DNA from: an uncultured Verrucomicrobia subdivision 3 bacterium | GTDB lineage: Bacteria; Verrucomicrobiota; Verrucomicrobiia; Limisphaerales; UBA11358 | DNA length: 64,000 bases | Direction: 5' to 3' | Assembly: GCA_903850425.1 (NCBI GenBank) | Contig: CAINLR010000109.1 | Location: 1-64,000 of the forward strand | Shown here: piece after piece, positions 22,314 to 39,703 of the stretch | Position numbering within the stretch: position 1 is the first letter of the stretch | How the letters are laid out: every line of letters starts with the position of its first letter | Notes under the pieces: generated by a model | Databases searched by the model: none | Told to the model about the DNA's origin: nothing | Seen by the model: the letters and a program-made list of their open reading frames with translations, nothing else | Program-made: the position numbers and the translations under genes

Positions 22314-25300
22314 TCATTGGATGGCCATGATGATGCCGTTGGTGATGTAGAGCGTATGGCCGCCAATCAGGAGGTTGGTGTTGACTCCGCCGGTGATGGC
22401 GTTGGCGGAAAGATTGGTCAAGCCCGCGCCGTTGCCGGTGACCACGCCGGCAATGAACGCCTGCGTCTGGCCGGAGCCGATGCGGATTATGTTGGTGTCC
22501 GTGGCCGAGCCCATGTTTCCAATGTCAATGTTGGAACTGCCCGTGGTGATGTTCCAGCCAGCCTGATAACCCAAGCCAATGTTGTAGCTGCCAGTGGTGT
22601 TTTGGTTAAGCGACTGATAACCGTCGGCAGTGTTGTTATTGCCGGTGCTGTTGTTCCAAAGCGCGCTGCCTCCGTTGGCGGCATTGTTGTTGCCGCTGGT
22701 GTTTTGGTTAAGCGACCAATAGCCGCTTGCGGTATTGTTGTTACCGGTGGTGTTGTTCCAAAGCGCGCTGCCACCATTGGCGAGGTTGCCGTTGCCAGTT
22801 GTGTTGCTCGCCAGCGCCTGATAGCCGACGGCTGCATTGTTCAAAGCTGAATACGCCGAGGGGCCGGTCAAATTCACGTTCGTCAAACCCGCGCCATTGC
22901 CAGTGATGACGCCAGCAATCAACGCCAGCGTCTGAACGTCGCCAATGCGGATAATATTGTTGTCCGTGGCCAGCCCCGCGCTTCCAATAATAATGTTGGA
23001 ACTGCCCGTTGTATTGTAGTAACCCGCCATGCTGCCCAGCGCGATGTTGTTACTGCCGGTGGAGTTATTATAGAGCGCATTCCAACCTTCCGCCGTGTTG
23101 TTATAGCCGCTGCTATTATTCGCCAATGCCTGAAAGCCATTGCCGGTATTGTAATAGCCGCTGGTATTGCCGCCAAGCGCCCCTTCACCGGCTGCTGTAT
23201 TGTCGCTCCCCGTGGCATTGCTATACAACGTGCCATTGCCATAAGCCGTGTTCCCACTGCCGATGGTATTTTGCTGCATCGCTTGAATACCCGCCGCCGT
23301 GTTGCCGGTGCCGCTAGAGTTGAGGTGCAGCGCCTGCCAGCCAAGGGCGGTGTTGCCCAGGCCACTCATGGTCAGGTTGCCGGCCCCGGCACCGACAAAA
23401 ATGTTCTTCGTTCCGAACGCCTGGAGCAAGGGGCTCCCGCCCGAGTAGAGGATTCCCGCCGTCGCCGTCGTGGCGGGCAGATACAAGTTGCTACTCACCG
23501 TTATATTCCCTGCGAAACCCGCGCCATTGAGATTGGTCAAACCCGCGCCGTTGCCGGTGATGATGCCGGCAATGAACGCCTGCGTCTGGCCGGAGCCGAT
23601 GCGGATGATGTTGTTGTCTGTGGACAAGCCCATGTTGCCAATGTCAATGTTGCTGCTGCCCGTGGTTGGGTTGTAACCTGCCTGAAAACCCAAGGCGATA
23701 TTATTGCTGCCGGTCGTATTACTGGTAAGCGCCTGAAATCCGTCTGCCGTATTATTTTTTCCGCTCGTGTTGCTCACCAGTGCCGCCTCGCCATTTGCGG
23801 TGTTGTTGCTCCCGCTTGTGTTGCTGGCCAGCGCGAAGAATCCTGCGGCGGTATTCAAAGAACCAATCGTGTTATTCTGCATGGCCGAAACCCCATAGGC
23901 GGTGTTCTCAATTCCGATCGTGTTCGACCGGAGCGCATTTACACCGCTGGCGGTGTTCTGAAATCCGGTCGTGTTGGCGGACAACGCGCTCAAGCCGCTC
24001 GCCGTGTTGTCGAAGCCGGTCGTGTTGTTCAGAAGCGTTTGGAAGCCAACGGCGGTATTATCGTTGGCGGTCGTGTTGTTGAAAAGCGCATGGTAACCGG
24101 CAGCGGTATTCAGAGAGCCGCTCGTATTGTTTTGCAATGCACCACTTCCACTGGCCGTGTTTTGGTAGCCGGACGTATTCGCGTAAAGCGCCCAGTCGCC
24201 GACGGCCATGTTTTGATATCCGCTGGTGTTGTAAAAAAGCGCCAATTGTCCGAAAGCCTCGTTGGCCCATCCATTCGTGTTGGTGTTGAGTGCCTCGTAG
24301 CCAACGGCGGTATTGCCGCCCGCAGTCGTATTGTTTTGGAGTGCTCCGTAACCACAAGCTGTGTTCTGGCTGGCGGTGGTGTTGGCAGCAAGGGCATACG
24401 AACCGCAGGCTGTGTTCACGCCACCACTGGTATTGCTAAAAAGCGCGTGATCGCCAACGGCGGTCAGCCAGCCTCCCGTGGTGTTGAATAAAAGAGAATC
24501 CGTTCCCACAGATGTGTTCTGGATACCGGTAGTATTATTAACCAAAGCGGCTTGGCCGACGGCGGTGTTATTATAGCCGGTTGTATTGGATTGCAAGGCA
24601 GCTTGGCCAACGGCAGTGTTATAACCTCCAGTCGTATTGTGTTGCAGCGCATCAACACCGTTGGCGGTGTTGTCACTGCCGGTAGTGTTGGCGGCAAGCG
24701 CCAGATAGCCATTGGCCGCGTTTCCCAGCGCGGAGCTTGCTGAAGGTCCGGTCAAGTTCACGTTGGTCAAGCCTGCGCCGTTGCCATTAAATAAACCTAC
24801 GAATGAATTGCTCAGATTGTTGAATGTGCTGGCCCCGTTGAAAACATTGCCGCAATTGAAGGTCTGATAGGCATTGCTCGGCGGCAATGCAATCGTCAGC
24901 GTGGCGGCGGCGGAATAATGGGTGCCCGCATTTTGCACCGTGAGACTCGTCACTGCGCCGTTGACAACCGTGCAGGTGATGACCGCGTTGGAACCGCTGG
25001 CATCCGTGACCGTCACCAACGGAGCCGTCGTGTATCCCGCCCCGCCATTGGTGATGATGGTGTCCACAATGAACCCGGAAACAATGACCACACCCGCCGT
25101 GGCCTGGACGGTGGTGTTGGGAATGTTCAGCCGCGCGATGTTGCTGCTCAACAGACTGTCGGCCACCGTGCCGGTCAGGCTGGCTGCCGGCAGATTCGTC
25201 AGGCCGCCGCCATTGCCGGTGAACGTGCCGGTCAGGTTTGCGCCGGTGGCATTATTCGTCACCACGGCGGCAGGCAATTGCGCCAGCGGCACGGTGCCCA

Positions 25301-25712
25301 TGATGTTTGCCGCCGCCACCGAACCCGCATTGCCGGCAGTGGCGGCATAAATGGCGTAAGGCGTGGGCAGGATGGACTGGCGGGGACTCAAGGGACTGAA
25401 CGCGCCGCCGCCATTGGTGCGTGCGGCCAACTCCAGCCAGTAATTGGAACCGTTGAACACTGCGCCAAAGTCCAGCGCGACGGTGAACAGGCCGTTGGTG
25501 ATGCCAGTGGCGGCATTGGTCAGCGCGCCACGCGCCGTGCCATTGGTCGTGGCATCGTAAATGGTAAAGCGCAAATCGTAAATGCCCGTGGCGGGATTCG
25601 CGCCGTCATTGAGCCGGCCATTGTAGGTGAAGGCCGTGCCTTGGGCGGCGACGTGATTGATTCCGGCAAGCATTGCCAGCGCGATGAGCAGGTTTTGAAT
25701 TTTATTTTTCAT
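22314..25712 (-). CDS. Large secreted repeat protein with about 34 17-aa NTAxGxxAL-type repeats
   Basis: Signal peptide; units such as GQAALQSNTTGYNNTAV in three blocks separated by IIRIGSGQTQAFIAG / GNGAGLTNVNLTGPSA linkers. Confidence 0.85.
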   Translation of the reverse strand: MKNKIQNLLIALAMLAGINHVAAQGTAFTYNGRLNDGANPATGIYDLRFTIYDATTNGTARGALTNAATGITNGLFTVALDFGAVFNGSNYWLELAARTNGGGAFSPLSPRQSILPTPYAIYAATAGNAGSVAAANIMGTVPLAQLPAAVVTNNATGANLTGTFTGNGGGLTNLPAASLTGTVADSLLSSNIARLNIPNTTVQATAGVVIVSGFIVDTIITNGGAGYTTAPLVTVTDASGSNAVITCTVVNGAVTSLTVQNAGTHYSAAATLTIALPPSNAYQTFNCGNVFNGASTFNNLSNSFVGLFNGNGAGLTNVNLTGPSASSALGNAANGYLALAANTTGSDNTANGVDALQHNTTGGYNTAVGQAALQSNTTGYNNTAVGQAALVNNTTGIQNTSVGTDSLLFNTTGGWLTAVGDHALFSNTSGGVNTACGSYALAANTTASQNTACGYGALQNNTTAGGNTAVGYEALNTNTNGWANEAFGQLALFYNTSGYQNMAVGDWALYANTSGYQNTASGSGALQNNTSGSLNTAAGYHALFNNTTANDNTAVGFQTLLNNTTGFDNTASGLSALSANTTGFQNTASGVNALRSNTIGIENTAYGVSAMQNNTIGSLNTAAGFFALASNTSGSNNTANGEAALVSNTSGKNNTADGFQALTSNTTGSNNIALGFQAGYNPTTGSSNIDIGNMGLSTDNNIIRIGSGQTQAFIAGIITGNGAGLTNLNGAGFAGNITVSSNLYLPATTATAGILYSGGSPLLQAFGTKNIFVGAGAGNLTMSGLGNTALGWQALHLNSSGTGNTAAGIQAMQQNTIGSGNTAYGNGTLYSNATGSDNTAAGEGALGGNTSGYYNTGNGFQALANNSSGYNNTAEGWNALYNNSTGSNNIALGSMAGYYNTTGSSNIIIGSAGLATDNNIIRIGDVQTLALIAGVITGNGAGLTNVNLTGPSAYSALNNAAVGYQALASNTTGNGNLANGGSALWNNTTGNNNTASGYWSLNQNTSGNNNAANGGSALWNNSTGNNNTADGYQSLNQNTTGSYNIGLGYQAGWNITTGSSNIDIGNMGSATDTNIIRIGSGQTQAFIAGVVTGNGAGLTNLSANAITGGVNTNLLIGGHTLYITNGIIMAIQ

Positions 25713-25835: not shown

Positions 25836-26555
25836 TCACGCATTCAGCGGGCGGTCCGGGGGCAGGTCGAGCTTGCTCCGCGTGCCCGCGCTGGCCGGGT
25901 CCGTGTGGGGGTATTCGCCATCGGCGGCGTGCTGGAGTTGGCGGCGGCGCACGGCCAGGGTTTCCACCATCTTGGCCAGTTGCTTGCGCAGCGTCGTGGC
26001 GTCGCCCTTTTTGCCGGTTTGATCCACTTTGGTTTGCTTGTAGGCATCCAGCGCGGCTTGCAGGTCGGTGCCATGCTGGGGGGTGATTTTGGGCAGGGTG
26101 TCCGTTTTGAGCTTGGCCACGATGTTGCCGGCGGCGGTTTCCAGCTCGGGACGGCTCACGTCAATGTTCGTGCCAATGCCATATTCGGGCAAAACCCCGT
26201 GGTTGCCTGCGTATTTGAGCTTGGCCTTGCTTTGGATGTAATGGATTTTGCCCAGCAACGTGCTTTTGGCGGTGCTTTCAGTGACGGTCTTGAGTTTGCC
26301 TTCCACGATGGCCTCGTTGGCGGCACCGGTGTATTGGCCGATGAATTGCAGGTCCTTTGACAGCGCGGTCATGAAGGCGGGGGTGATGATCAGGTCGTCC
26401 TGGATTTTAGCAAAGATGGCCGGATCGCTGTTGACCACGCCGGTGATGGTGCTGGTTCTGCTGATTTCCGCCAGTTGATGCTTGTCCAGCAGGCCGTGGT
26501 GTTTGGGGGTTTTGCCGCCTTCCGGGGCGGGCGTTGGGGTGGGAGTTTCGCTCAT
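25836..26555 (-). CDS. Hypothetical protein, no signal peptide
   Basis: 239 aa with sensible amino-acid composition; no family recognised. Confidence 0.6.
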   Translation of the reverse strand: MSETPTPTPAPEGGKTPKHHGLLDKHQLAEISRTSTITGVVNSDPAIFAKIQDDLIITPAFMTALSKDLQFIGQYTGAANEAIVEGKLKTVTESTAKSTLLGKIHYIQSKAKLKYAGNHGVLPEYGIGTNIDVSRPELETAAGNIVAKLKTDTLPKITPQHGTDLQAALDAYKQTKVDQTGKKGDATTLRKQLAKMVETLAVRRRQLQHAADGEYPHTDPASAGTRSKLDLPPDRPLNA

Positions 26556-26708
26556 AGGTTTGTTTGTTTCAGTGTTTTATTGCAAAGGCTCAAAGGGTTG
26601 CCCGCCGGGATATCCGCTGCTCGTCCCACCCCCATCCGCGGGGCGCAATGGGCCGGCGCGAGCGCCGAAAAAAGCGGGATTTTGATGAGGTTTGGCGATT
26701 TTTCGGCA

Positions 26709-26960
26709 AATCCGTTGGGTTGGCGGCTTACTCCGTTGTTTCGCACCCCCACTCCATTGAAATGCCTGCCCACTCCCTGGCCGCAGATTGCCACTCCGTA
26801 GCTTCAGCTTACCACTCCCTAGCCACGAAGGCCGATGCCGTTTCAGTGGAGATCCGCACTCTGGCTCCGAAGATTTGCGCCGTGGTCTCAGATTAGGCCG
26901 CCGTTGCCGTAGATGCTGACTCCGTTGCTCCGAAAACTCACTCCTTTGCGGTGGAAGGCT
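26709..26960. repeat. Degenerate 21-nt-period array, core ACTCC (GGAGT on minus strand)
   Basis: 12 phase positions from 26709 to 26940 at exact 21-nt spacing; ACTCC exact at 7 of them. Confidence 0.8.
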
Positions 26961-27216
26961 GCTGTCCGGGCCTTCGGCCTCACGAGCAGATCGTGGACTG
27001 AGGCTCTCCGGCGGCGGTGGTGGAAGTTTTACCAATGCCCCGGTGCGGGCAGGCGGCGGAGAAAATAATGGCCGGGAACGCGAAATGGTCGCGTCGAATA
27101 TTGCGGCCAGCCAGATTGAAGTGATCCCGCCCATGGCAATGAATAAGCGAGACTGTTGTTCATAACTAACGGCGTGGCAATACTTATTTGAAATTATTTA
27201 CTCACCGGCCAAAATT

Positions 27217-28632
27217 TCAGTTTTCAGTCCGGCTCAGGAGCTCGCCCTGCTTCAGCCGCGTTCTGATTTTCTGGCCGGCTGTGACCGTGGCCGCGTCGTG
27301 CAACACTTTCCCCGTGGCCGCATCGGTGGTGATGGAATAGCCGCGCGCCAGCACCTGCTCCGGGCCGAGCGAGTTCAGGCGTTTTTCCAGTTGCCGCAAC
27401 GTCTCGCGCCGCGCTTTCAACGCCAGCGACGGCTTCGCCCGCAAAAATCGGCCCGCCAGATTTTGCAAAACCAGTCCGCGCGAACGCGTGCCCGTTTTCA
27501 AGCCGCGCAGGAGGCCCGACGACAAATCGTCCAGCCGCTGCAAGGATTCATCCAAGCGCCGACGCGGATGCAGACGGGCCAGCCGTCCGCCAAGCTGAGT
27601 GTAGTTCTCAGCCGCGTCCTCAAAGCCGCGCCAGGCCGCCCGGCGCAACAGCTCCGGCGCGCTCGCGACAAATTCCCGGCTGGCAAAGACGTCTTCCGTG
27701 ATGATTTCCGCCGCCGCACTGGGCGTGGCTGCGCGAAAATCCGCGACGAAGTCCGCAATGGTGAAATCAATCTCGTGCCCGACGGCGGACACGATCGGCA
27801 CCGCTGATTCAAAGATCGCCCGGGCCACCGGTTCCTCGTTGAAGGCCCACAAATCTTCGAGCGACCCGCCGCCGCGCGTGAGGAGAATGAGATCCAATTT
27901 TTCCGTAGGAGCCGACGTGCGGAGGCTGTGACTAATAGCCGGCTGCCGATGGCCGATGGCCGATTTTGAAGTTTGAGCCTCGTCACTTCGGCTGCTACCG
28001 ACGCTGAATTCATTTAGCAACCTTATCGCCTCGGCGATTTCCCTGGCCGCACCGTCGCCTTGCACGCGCGCCGGCACCAGAATGATTTCCAATCCTGGAT
28101 TGCGCCGTTGCACCACATGCAGCACGTCGCGGATGGCTGCGCCCGTGGGCGAAGTGACGAGACCGATGCGCTGCGGATAGCGGGGCAGGGGACGCTTGCG
28201 CTCCGCCGCGAACAAGCCTTCCGCCGCGAGCTTCTGTTTCAATTTTTCAAACGCTACTTGCAGCGCGCCGACGCCTTGCAATTCGACGGCGCGGACGATG
28301 AGTTGATATTGCCCGCGCGCCTCATAAACCGTCACGTCGCCCTGCAGCAGGACTTTCTGGCCATCCGCCAGCAGCTCGCGCTGGGAGACTTTTTCACGGC
28401 TAAAGAGCACACAGCTCAATTGCGCGCCGGCATCCTTGAGCGTGAAATACATGTGCCCGGAACTTTGCGCGCGCAAGTTGGTGATCTCGCCGCTGACCCA
28501 GACCGAGCCAAGTGATTTTTCCAGCAGCGCCCGGACTGTGCCGGTCAATTCCGAGACGGTCAAAACCTTCCGCATTTCTGCCGGTGAAAATAATTCACCA
28601 AAGTTCCACTGCGATTTGGCCGGTTTGCTCAT
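27217..28632 (-). CDS. xseA: Exodeoxyribonuclease VII large subunit
   Basis: OB-fold N-terminus (LGSVWVSGEITNLRAQSSGHMYFTLKDAGAQLSCVLF), RIGLVTSPTGAAIRDVL, LTRGGGSLEDLWAFNEEPVARAIF, SAVGHEIDFT. Confidence 0.95.
   Translation of the reverse strand: MSKPAKSQWNFGELFSPAEMRKVLTVSELTGTVRALLEKSLGSVWVSGEITNLRAQSSGHMYFTLKDAGAQLSCVLFSREKVSQRELLADGQKVLLQGDVTVYEARGQYQLIVRAVELQGVGALQVAFEKLKQKLAAEGLFAAERKRPLPRYPQRIGLVTSPTGAAIRDVLHVVQRRNPGLEIILVPARVQGDGAAREIAEAIRLLNEFSVGSSRSDEAQTSKSAIGHRQPAISHSLRTSAPTEKLDLILLTRGGGSLEDLWAFNEEPVARAIFESAVPIVSAVGHEIDFTIADFVADFRAATPSAAAEIITEDVFASREFVASAPELLRRAAWRGFEDAAENYTQLGGRLARLHPRRRLDESLQRLDDLSSGLLRGLKTGTRSRGLVLQNLAGRFLRAKPSLALKARRETLRQLEKRLNSLGPEQVLARGYSITTDAATGKVLHDAATVTAGQKIRTRLKQGELLSRTEN
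27905..28001. repeat. Palindromic repeat inserted in frame within xseA
   Basis: GTAGGAGCCGACGTGCGGAGGCTGTGACT ... AGTTTGAGCCTCGTCACTTCGGCTGCTAC; related copy at 22240-22299. Confidence 0.85.
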
Positions 28633-38682: not shown

Positions 38683-39132
38683 TCATGTTTTATTCTCGAA
38701 CTTGCCTCTCAAAAATCTGTAATAGGACCATACACTATCCACTGGCCCGTTCTCCAATCGCATTCCAACTTTTAGGTGTGGCCACATATCGCCACCAGCA
38801 CCAGCCTGAAAAGTCAAAAGCGTCTGTCCGGGATACAACGCACTCTCCATCTTCCAAGTCCCGCCGAATTGACGTTTGATGACCTCGGCAATATAACCGC
38901 CGAACATGAGGCTAATCTGCTCCAGCTTTTCCGGCGGCGGCGGAGCTTTCTTGGTGATCTTGCTCCAAAATCCTCTTGGAATCGTGAGATAAATCCTGGA
39001 CAACATACTCTCGACCTTCTCGATGCTCGCATCGGAGTAGTCTAATGTTATGCCAAACGACTGACGAGCATACTCCACGCAAGAGTTAGCGGCCTCGCTC
39101 ATTGTTTCATTAACTGATTCGCTCTCGCTCAT
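38683..39132 (-). CDS. Hypothetical protein
   Basis: 149 aa ORF with start codon, plausible composition. Confidence 0.5.
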   Translation of the reverse strand: MSESESVNETMSEAANSCVEYARQSFGITLDYSDASIEKVESMLSRIYLTIPRGFWSKITKKAPPPPEKLEQISLMFGGYIAEVIKRQFGGTWKMESALYPGQTLLTFQAGAGGDMWPHLKVGMRLENGPVDSVWSYYRFLRGKFENKT

Positions 39133-39451
39133 AAACTGTGCGTGCCAAGTGGCCTAACTAGGATTCGGGCGCAAATTGCGGTATATCAAGTCAGGCATGG
39201 AGGGGTTGTATTTCAGGCTTCCCCCGTTGTCAACAAGGGTTTGTATCTTTTCCAGCCATGAGTATTGAACCGGGAAAAACCGCACGCCCGCGCGCCCAGC
39301 CAATTCCCAATCCGAAGTTGCGGCTGCGGAGTCCGCAGGATGGCTGAAACCAGGAAAAAATGCCGGATTTGGGAGTTTTCAGGATTTTATTGCGATTTTC
39401 GGCGCTTTTGGAGGAGTTTTGGCCGGCAACCTTCCTTCCACCACCGCCCGG

Positions 39452-39703
39452 ACTCCTATCCTGGCGGCGCGGACTCCTATCCTGGTGGCGCGGACTCCTA
39501 TCCTGACGGCGCGGACTCCTATCCTGACGGCGCGGACTCCTATCCTGACGGCGCGGACTCCTATCCTGACGGCGCGGACTCCTATCCTGGTGGCGCGGAC
39601 TCCTATCCTGGCGGCGCGGACTCCTATCCTGGTGGCGCGGACTCCTATCCGGGCGGCCAGAACTCCTATTCCGGCGGCGCAGACTCCTTTCTGGCGGGCG
39701 GCA
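39452..39703. repeat. 21-nt tandem array (12 units), consensus ACTCCTATCCTGRYGGCGCGG
   Basis: ACTCC at 39452 to 39683 at exact 21-nt spacing. Confidence 0.97.

Follow-up and report, generated by a model that had tools for sequence, protein, structure and literature searches.

The 21-nt array found upstream of a 239-aa gene in this DNA is part of a two-part cassette that recurs in the phylum, in which an array lies 5′ of a small gene belonging to one of two uncharacterised families. Among the loci the unit sequences turn over fast while period and phase persist. The pairing of array and gene appears to be undescribed; a description of it was not found in the open-access literature (PMC). The window, i.e. 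the whole stretch of 64,000 nucleotides that was analysed, contains these features:

25836..26555, minus strand: 239-aa gene, partner of the reported array (W1-type family); predicted to be all-helical, with homologues elsewhere that have upstream 21-nt arrays.
26577..27134, minus strand: 185-aa open frame across the reported array, from the ORF listing and the coding-signal tests; most likely spurious.
26709..26960, minus strand: the reported 21-nt array, 12 in-phase units with seven exact cores, which read ACTCC on the plus strand and GGAGT in the sense direction of the downstream gene.
27217..28632, minus strand: xseA, adjoining the insertion of array and gene; in most relatives other genes, often apparently dxs, come after it, with no array.
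38683..39132, minus strand: 149-aa hypothetical gene, sense-downstream of the second array and outside both family profiles.
39449..39701, minus strand: second array, 12 near-identical 21-nt units (CGGACTCCTATCCTGGCGGCG); an orphan with no family gene.

The genome has a copy of the second array, both flanks included, where a different contig ends (G000:C57; L002/L267). At 22314-25712 (minus strand) the window also holds a 1132-aa ORF with 51/102-nt repeats of the NTTG..NTA.G..AL type, which is coding and unrelated to the 21-nt arrays.

The reported array is flanked by xseA and the 239-aa gene, which are both minus-strand genes, and lies 5′ of the latter. The initial annotation had placed the ACTCC core at 26730, 26751, 26772, 26793, 26814, 26919 and 26940, with degenerate units between at the 21-nt phase, and the exact positions together with the shuffles confirmed this. 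Degenerate in-phase units start at 26709 (AATCC), 26835, 26856, 26877 and 26898. Column information over 11 units amounted to 0.653 bits, compared with 0.27 ± 0.02 (maximum 0.352) in 200 dinucleotide shuffles of the 4 kb around the array. A triple-core pattern with up to 3 mismatches gave 29 matches in the whole window against 0.66 expected, a number reached in none of 100 shuffles; the majority of these matches came from the second array (39449-39701) and not from the reported one.

Among 49 genomes of the genus, 14 had homologues of the 239-aa protein (W1-type), a number of which were weak partial matches. Members of the second family, in which a helical domain is followed by an FN3 domain, were present in 23 of the 49, with up to nine copies per genome. 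An array was called at a family gene when the 6-unit score reached at least 0.70 at a period of 19-23 within 700 nt. By this call, 31 of 46 family genes of the first batch had an array upstream and 0 of 49 had one downstream, and in a second, independently fetched batch an array was found upstream at 34 of 52 family loci; the family loci are mutually related, the p-values are nominal and many of the genomes are fragmented drafts. The background in random 700-nt genome stretches was 11 of 1048 (~1%) at period 21 and zero at 19, 20, 22 and 23. In one relative without a match to either family, 0 arrays were found in 295 kb, and another with seven FN3-type genes had 5 arrays in 326 kb. About a third of the family genes had no detectable array.

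The pairing is seen again in other families and classes within the phylum. Beyond the genus, FN3-type genes with arrays were found in three genomes of the same class (L280 and L282 at period 21, L279 at 22), and W1-type genes with arrays in a different family (L440, with 17 units) and in a different class (L441, with 8 units). Orphan arrays without a family gene occur at 39449-39701 in the window, in G029:C119 (before dus), in G048:C286 and in G042:C169. A Spartobacteria record (L081, L107) contains similar 21-nt arrays, and a family gene was not found near them; this record and the style of the genes point to Verrucomicrobiota as the phylum concerned.

Many FN3-type loci contain a second, coiled-coil-like small gene. 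It encodes 85-223 aa (M[AP][FY]DP[TS]LPANxAPIVAAELRNQFNxLKALID...) and follows the FN3-type gene, giving the order array - gene 1 - gene 2 at L229:1659, L230:2281, L232, L233, L234, L236 and L252 (sense coordinates). What had looked like a conserved 3′ DNA element after gene 1 was really the start of this second coding gene. A conserved 5′ element at four loci was set aside as an RNA candidate; part of it coincides with a dispersed 40-nt repeat and, as judged by eye, with array units that have decayed.

At the 3′ side of xseA, array and W1-type gene occur together in 2 genomes, that of the window and G002, and both are absent from 26. The xseA site of these 26 array-less genomes, all with enough sequence, scored 0.40-0.53, which equals the background, and the next gene was often apparently dxs. 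In G002 the order is xseA, array, partner gene; the GGAGT core is common to this array and that of the window, the units being otherwise diverged. Three orthologous loci (L233, L252, L235) have 5′ flanks that are ~83% identical and genes that are 77-80% identical, yet L233 has units unrelated to those found at L252 and L235. Paralogous arrays were observed within genomes, namely L024 and L028 (G029:C119 and C172) and L023 and L042 (G002:C15 and C140). In such pairs the first units and ~200 nt of the 5′ flank are shared, the sequences downstream differ, and one copy lies before dus and not before a family gene; judging from the sequences of these pairs, it is as if flank plus array could be moved without the gene.

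The GGAGT core, with which a genome-wide search had been proposed, turned out to occur in a small number of arrays that are orthologous or otherwise related. The cores of most arrays are different, so that a GGAGT search would miss nearly all of them, and ACTCC/GGAGT is ruled out as a universal motif. When the whole collection was scanned with an exact four-core pattern, many of the matches listed were cyanobacterial and resembled unrelated tandem repeats.

It is the period that stays constant. We scanned 812,549 bases of the 6.9 Mb genome, window included, at periods 12 to 45, using an 8-unit score with a fixed threshold. The scan gave 13 places at period 21, 8 at period 42, which largely coincide with the former, and 0-2 for each of the other periods. 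Noncoding arrays were found only at 21 and its harmonic 42, the places with other periods being classed as coding. Some of the period-21 places, a few, are coding coiled coils, and on inspection nine were judged to be genuine arrays; each of the nine has a different unit sequence, except for the array at 39449-39701 and its copy. The initial annotation had left it to further searches whether other phase-locked arrays exist in the genome and whether relatives conserve the period; further arrays were found, and the period is kept. When the period was left free between 15 and 30 in the second batch, 33 of 34 new arrays had a period of 21 and one a period of 22. Off-period arrays are L231 with 20 and L243, L316 and L279 with 22, and across loci the arrays comprise about 6-17 units.

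Period-21 signals in L198, L201, L203:10979-12112 and L261 were set aside as coding (coiled-coil or other genes). One of these loci, L203:9779-12808, is a ~1010-aa ORF in which a heptad coiled coil generates a strong 21-nt coding period over ~1.1 kb, in contrast to the noncoding arrays. Alternation of two unit types was seen in the period-22 array L279:635-964, where it results in a stronger 44-nt period (TTACTCGACCCCGAGTAA... / GTCTTTGACCTCGAGTAT...), and similarly in L250 and L244. In G047, three contigs (L393, L394, L407) terminate inside arrays that all have one 21-nt unit (aaTTACATCGATGTTCCCGCG), which suggests that short-read assemblies break at the arrays.

Phase is maintained as well. 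Across 73 arrays with 661 in-phase units, 24% of the cells were non-consensus and only about ten phase shifts were found at the ends; because units were added in this analysis only up to a break, the count of interior indels is too low, and some of the intact arrays may be of recent origin. The out-of-phase continuations were mostly of 1-2 nt, three were larger (about 8-9) and none was of 3 or 6. Arrays that have diverged as much as the reported one held their phase over 12 units. This retention of phase in diverged arrays favours the view that the spacing is under constraint. Since a turn of B-DNA is ~10.5 bp, two turns are the simplest geometric reason for a step of 21, and this fits the toleration of 20 and 22.

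Units were further analysed for self-complementarity, using as null one column permutation applied to all units, which keeps composition and conservation and loses the order. The combined z was -10.4 for 48 arrays and -10.1 for 34 further arrays, and a 5-bp stem exceeded z = 2 in 15/48 arrays of the first batch and 14/34 of the second. Complementarity extends from ~2.5 to 7.5 nt from the axis and leaves about four central nucleotides unpaired. The effect depended on the partner family, the mean stem z being 1.81 in FN3-type arrays, whose units are dyad-symmetric, and 0.23 in W1-type arrays, which lack such units (p = 0.0009). The reported array is likewise without dyad-symmetric units.

Searches of the partner proteins against Pfam and NCBIfam yielded no significant domain except FN3 in one family, and no DNA-binding or initiator (Rep) domain. 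Rfam, PHROGs, NCBIfam and PDB returned generic FN3 matches only, and tblastn gave no match in phages. FN3 domains are more usual in surface or tail proteins. AlphaFold, run on the single sequence of the 239-aa protein, predicted an all-helical structure at low confidence (pLDDT 44).

The reading that we prefer, although its chances are somewhat below even, is a DNA nucleoprotein array with a protein site every two helical turns, which would serve the neighbouring gene. The array would act as double-stranded DNA, presenting a row of putative protein sites on one face of the helix, and the protein would assemble on it cooperatively; candidates for the binder are the adjacent small protein or a common host factor. 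By analogy with iterons and parC-type centromeres, the array could autoregulate or mark the locus, and its 5′ position suggests such a role. For FN3-type arrays the dyad in each unit suggests one dimer per unit, and in W1-type arrays, the reported one included, the putative sites resemble direct repeats. That the core would lie on one DNA face, 21 bp being two helical turns, had been put forward in the initial annotation, and of the options given there it fits best and remains unproven. Against the nucleoprotein model stand the lack of a recognised DNA-binding domain in the partner proteins, the low confidence of the AlphaFold model, the more usual place of FN3 in surface or tail proteins, the orphan arrays and the third of the genes that have no detectable array. 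Sequence-specific recognition is also hard to reconcile with the fast turnover of the units, unless the binder evolves along with them. A doubtful but possible extension is that the arrays constitute a new type of element, whose period is conserved and whose sequence is freely replaced, with a co-evolving small protein that would recognise its own array and build a regular nucleoprotein (or ribonucleoprotein) filament; a genome would then contain several mutually distinct array-protein pairs.

It seems rather unlikely that the arrays function as RNA. They would then be transcribed, as a 5′ leader or as an RNA of their own, into a chain of mini-hairpins (stem ~5-6 bp, loop ~4 nt) that the partner protein binds or processes into ~21-nt pieces. 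The position of the complementarity around its unpaired centre is hairpin-like, and the arrays lie 5′ of the gene and in line with it. In batch 1, 22 of 28 arrays had more G-U than A-C on the strand of the gene (p = 0.004), but this strand-specific excess did not recur in batch 2 (13/24, p = 0.84). For hairpins with compensatory changes the signal was not specific to Watson-Crick pairing: an energy-based column shuffle was first significant, but control base maps equalled Watson-Crick pairing, and overall Watson-Crick covariation was no stronger (6.3) than that of the control maps (6.2 and 5.7). The only array with clear Watson-Crick-specific covariation, which would suit an RNA, is L025:1442-1736 (G042:C169), located between convergent genes, with a z of 5.0 vs 0.7, -1.1 and -0.1 for the control maps. 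Fold scores were nearly equal on both strands. W1-type arrays, among them the reported one, are without hairpins, no Rfam model matched the arrays, and a chain of hairpins has no obvious need for a fixed period of 21.

We regard as unlikely that the arrays are a neutral or selfish satellite, copied with an inherent 21-nt step by slippage or template switching at hairpins, with hot spots beside these genes and no function for the cell. Rapid unit turnover, near-identical arrays such as that at 39449-39701, the dispersal of paralogous arrays together with their flanks and the existence of orphans would all suit such an origin, and template switching could make dyads without selection. On the other hand, other periods are virtually absent from the 813 kb, old and strongly diverged arrays hold their phase with very few indels, and placement is 5′ and not 3′ at two gene families over class-level distances.

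Both open frames described initially, the HS heptads on the plus strand with a stop at their end and the 185-aa frame on the minus strand, are present. An open frame alone is weak evidence here, because 21 is a multiple of 3 and 21-nt repeats readily yield long spurious ORFs. Of 67 arrays, 53 had a fully open frame in the direction of the gene and 45 had one on the antisense strand, against 35 expected from column permutation, a null that does not preserve the dinucleotide bias; with the antisense count also raised, this bias can account for part of the excess. Although 21 nt equal seven codons, it is very improbable that the arrays encode a seven-residue repeat in a small protein or an N-terminal extension, the heptad peptide of the initial annotation. 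Variability was not concentrated at third codon positions (mean z -0.33, with no array above 2), some arrays have a period of 20 or 22, and the phase shifts are mostly of 1-2 nt and not in threes.

Several known systems resemble the arrays in part. Plasmid centromeres (parC of type II ParMRC, tubC of TubZRC and type Ib parS) consist of tandem repeats, which can number about ten or more, in front of a small gene that encodes their binding protein, in many cases also the repressor of its own promoter (PMC5016525). The arrays described here are likewise tandem repeat sites upstream of a small gene; in contrast to the centromeres, they occur in several chromosomal copies, their unit sequence varies from locus to locus within a genome, and neither an adjacent partition NTPase gene nor a known centromere-binding domain was seen. 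ORF listings of the window and the other loci showed no ParM, TubZ or ParA in the ORFs neighbouring the arrays. Iterons are direct repeats of ~17-22 bp that lie close to the gene for their binding protein, at a spacing of roughly two helical turns. The arrays share with them the repeat of about two turns near a small gene and differ in that they are chromosomal and multicopy and in that the partner proteins contain no Rep/initiator domain (Pfam). As neither a partition NTPase in the neighbouring ORFs nor an initiator domain was found, the arrays were not classed as parC/tubC or iterons.

In TIGR-Tas, one protein gene lies beside an array of 5-15 variable palindromic units with spacers (PMC12045711), and the pairing of a single protein gene with a palindromic array is similar here. 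The units of our arrays are, however, 21 nt and not 36 nt long and are related to each other instead of being distinct guides, and the Nop-domain protein is absent from the genome (PF01798; controls positive). Bacterial minisatellites or VNTRs are also tandem repeats near promoters with changing unit number, but in the arrays the period is fixed across unrelated sequences and genomes and the linkage to two gene families is strict.

Conserved spacing with freely changing letters is a rare signature, in which geometry and not sequence is constrained, and which standard searches by alignment or motif do not detect. Should the arrays prove to be selfish, the novelty would lie in a copying mechanism whose step is fixed at 21 nt. 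If each partner protein recognises the array of its own locus, a genome would offer several independently coded protein-DNA (or RNA) pairs in which the evolution of specificity could be studied, and two widespread, uncharacterised families of small proteins would gain a testable role.
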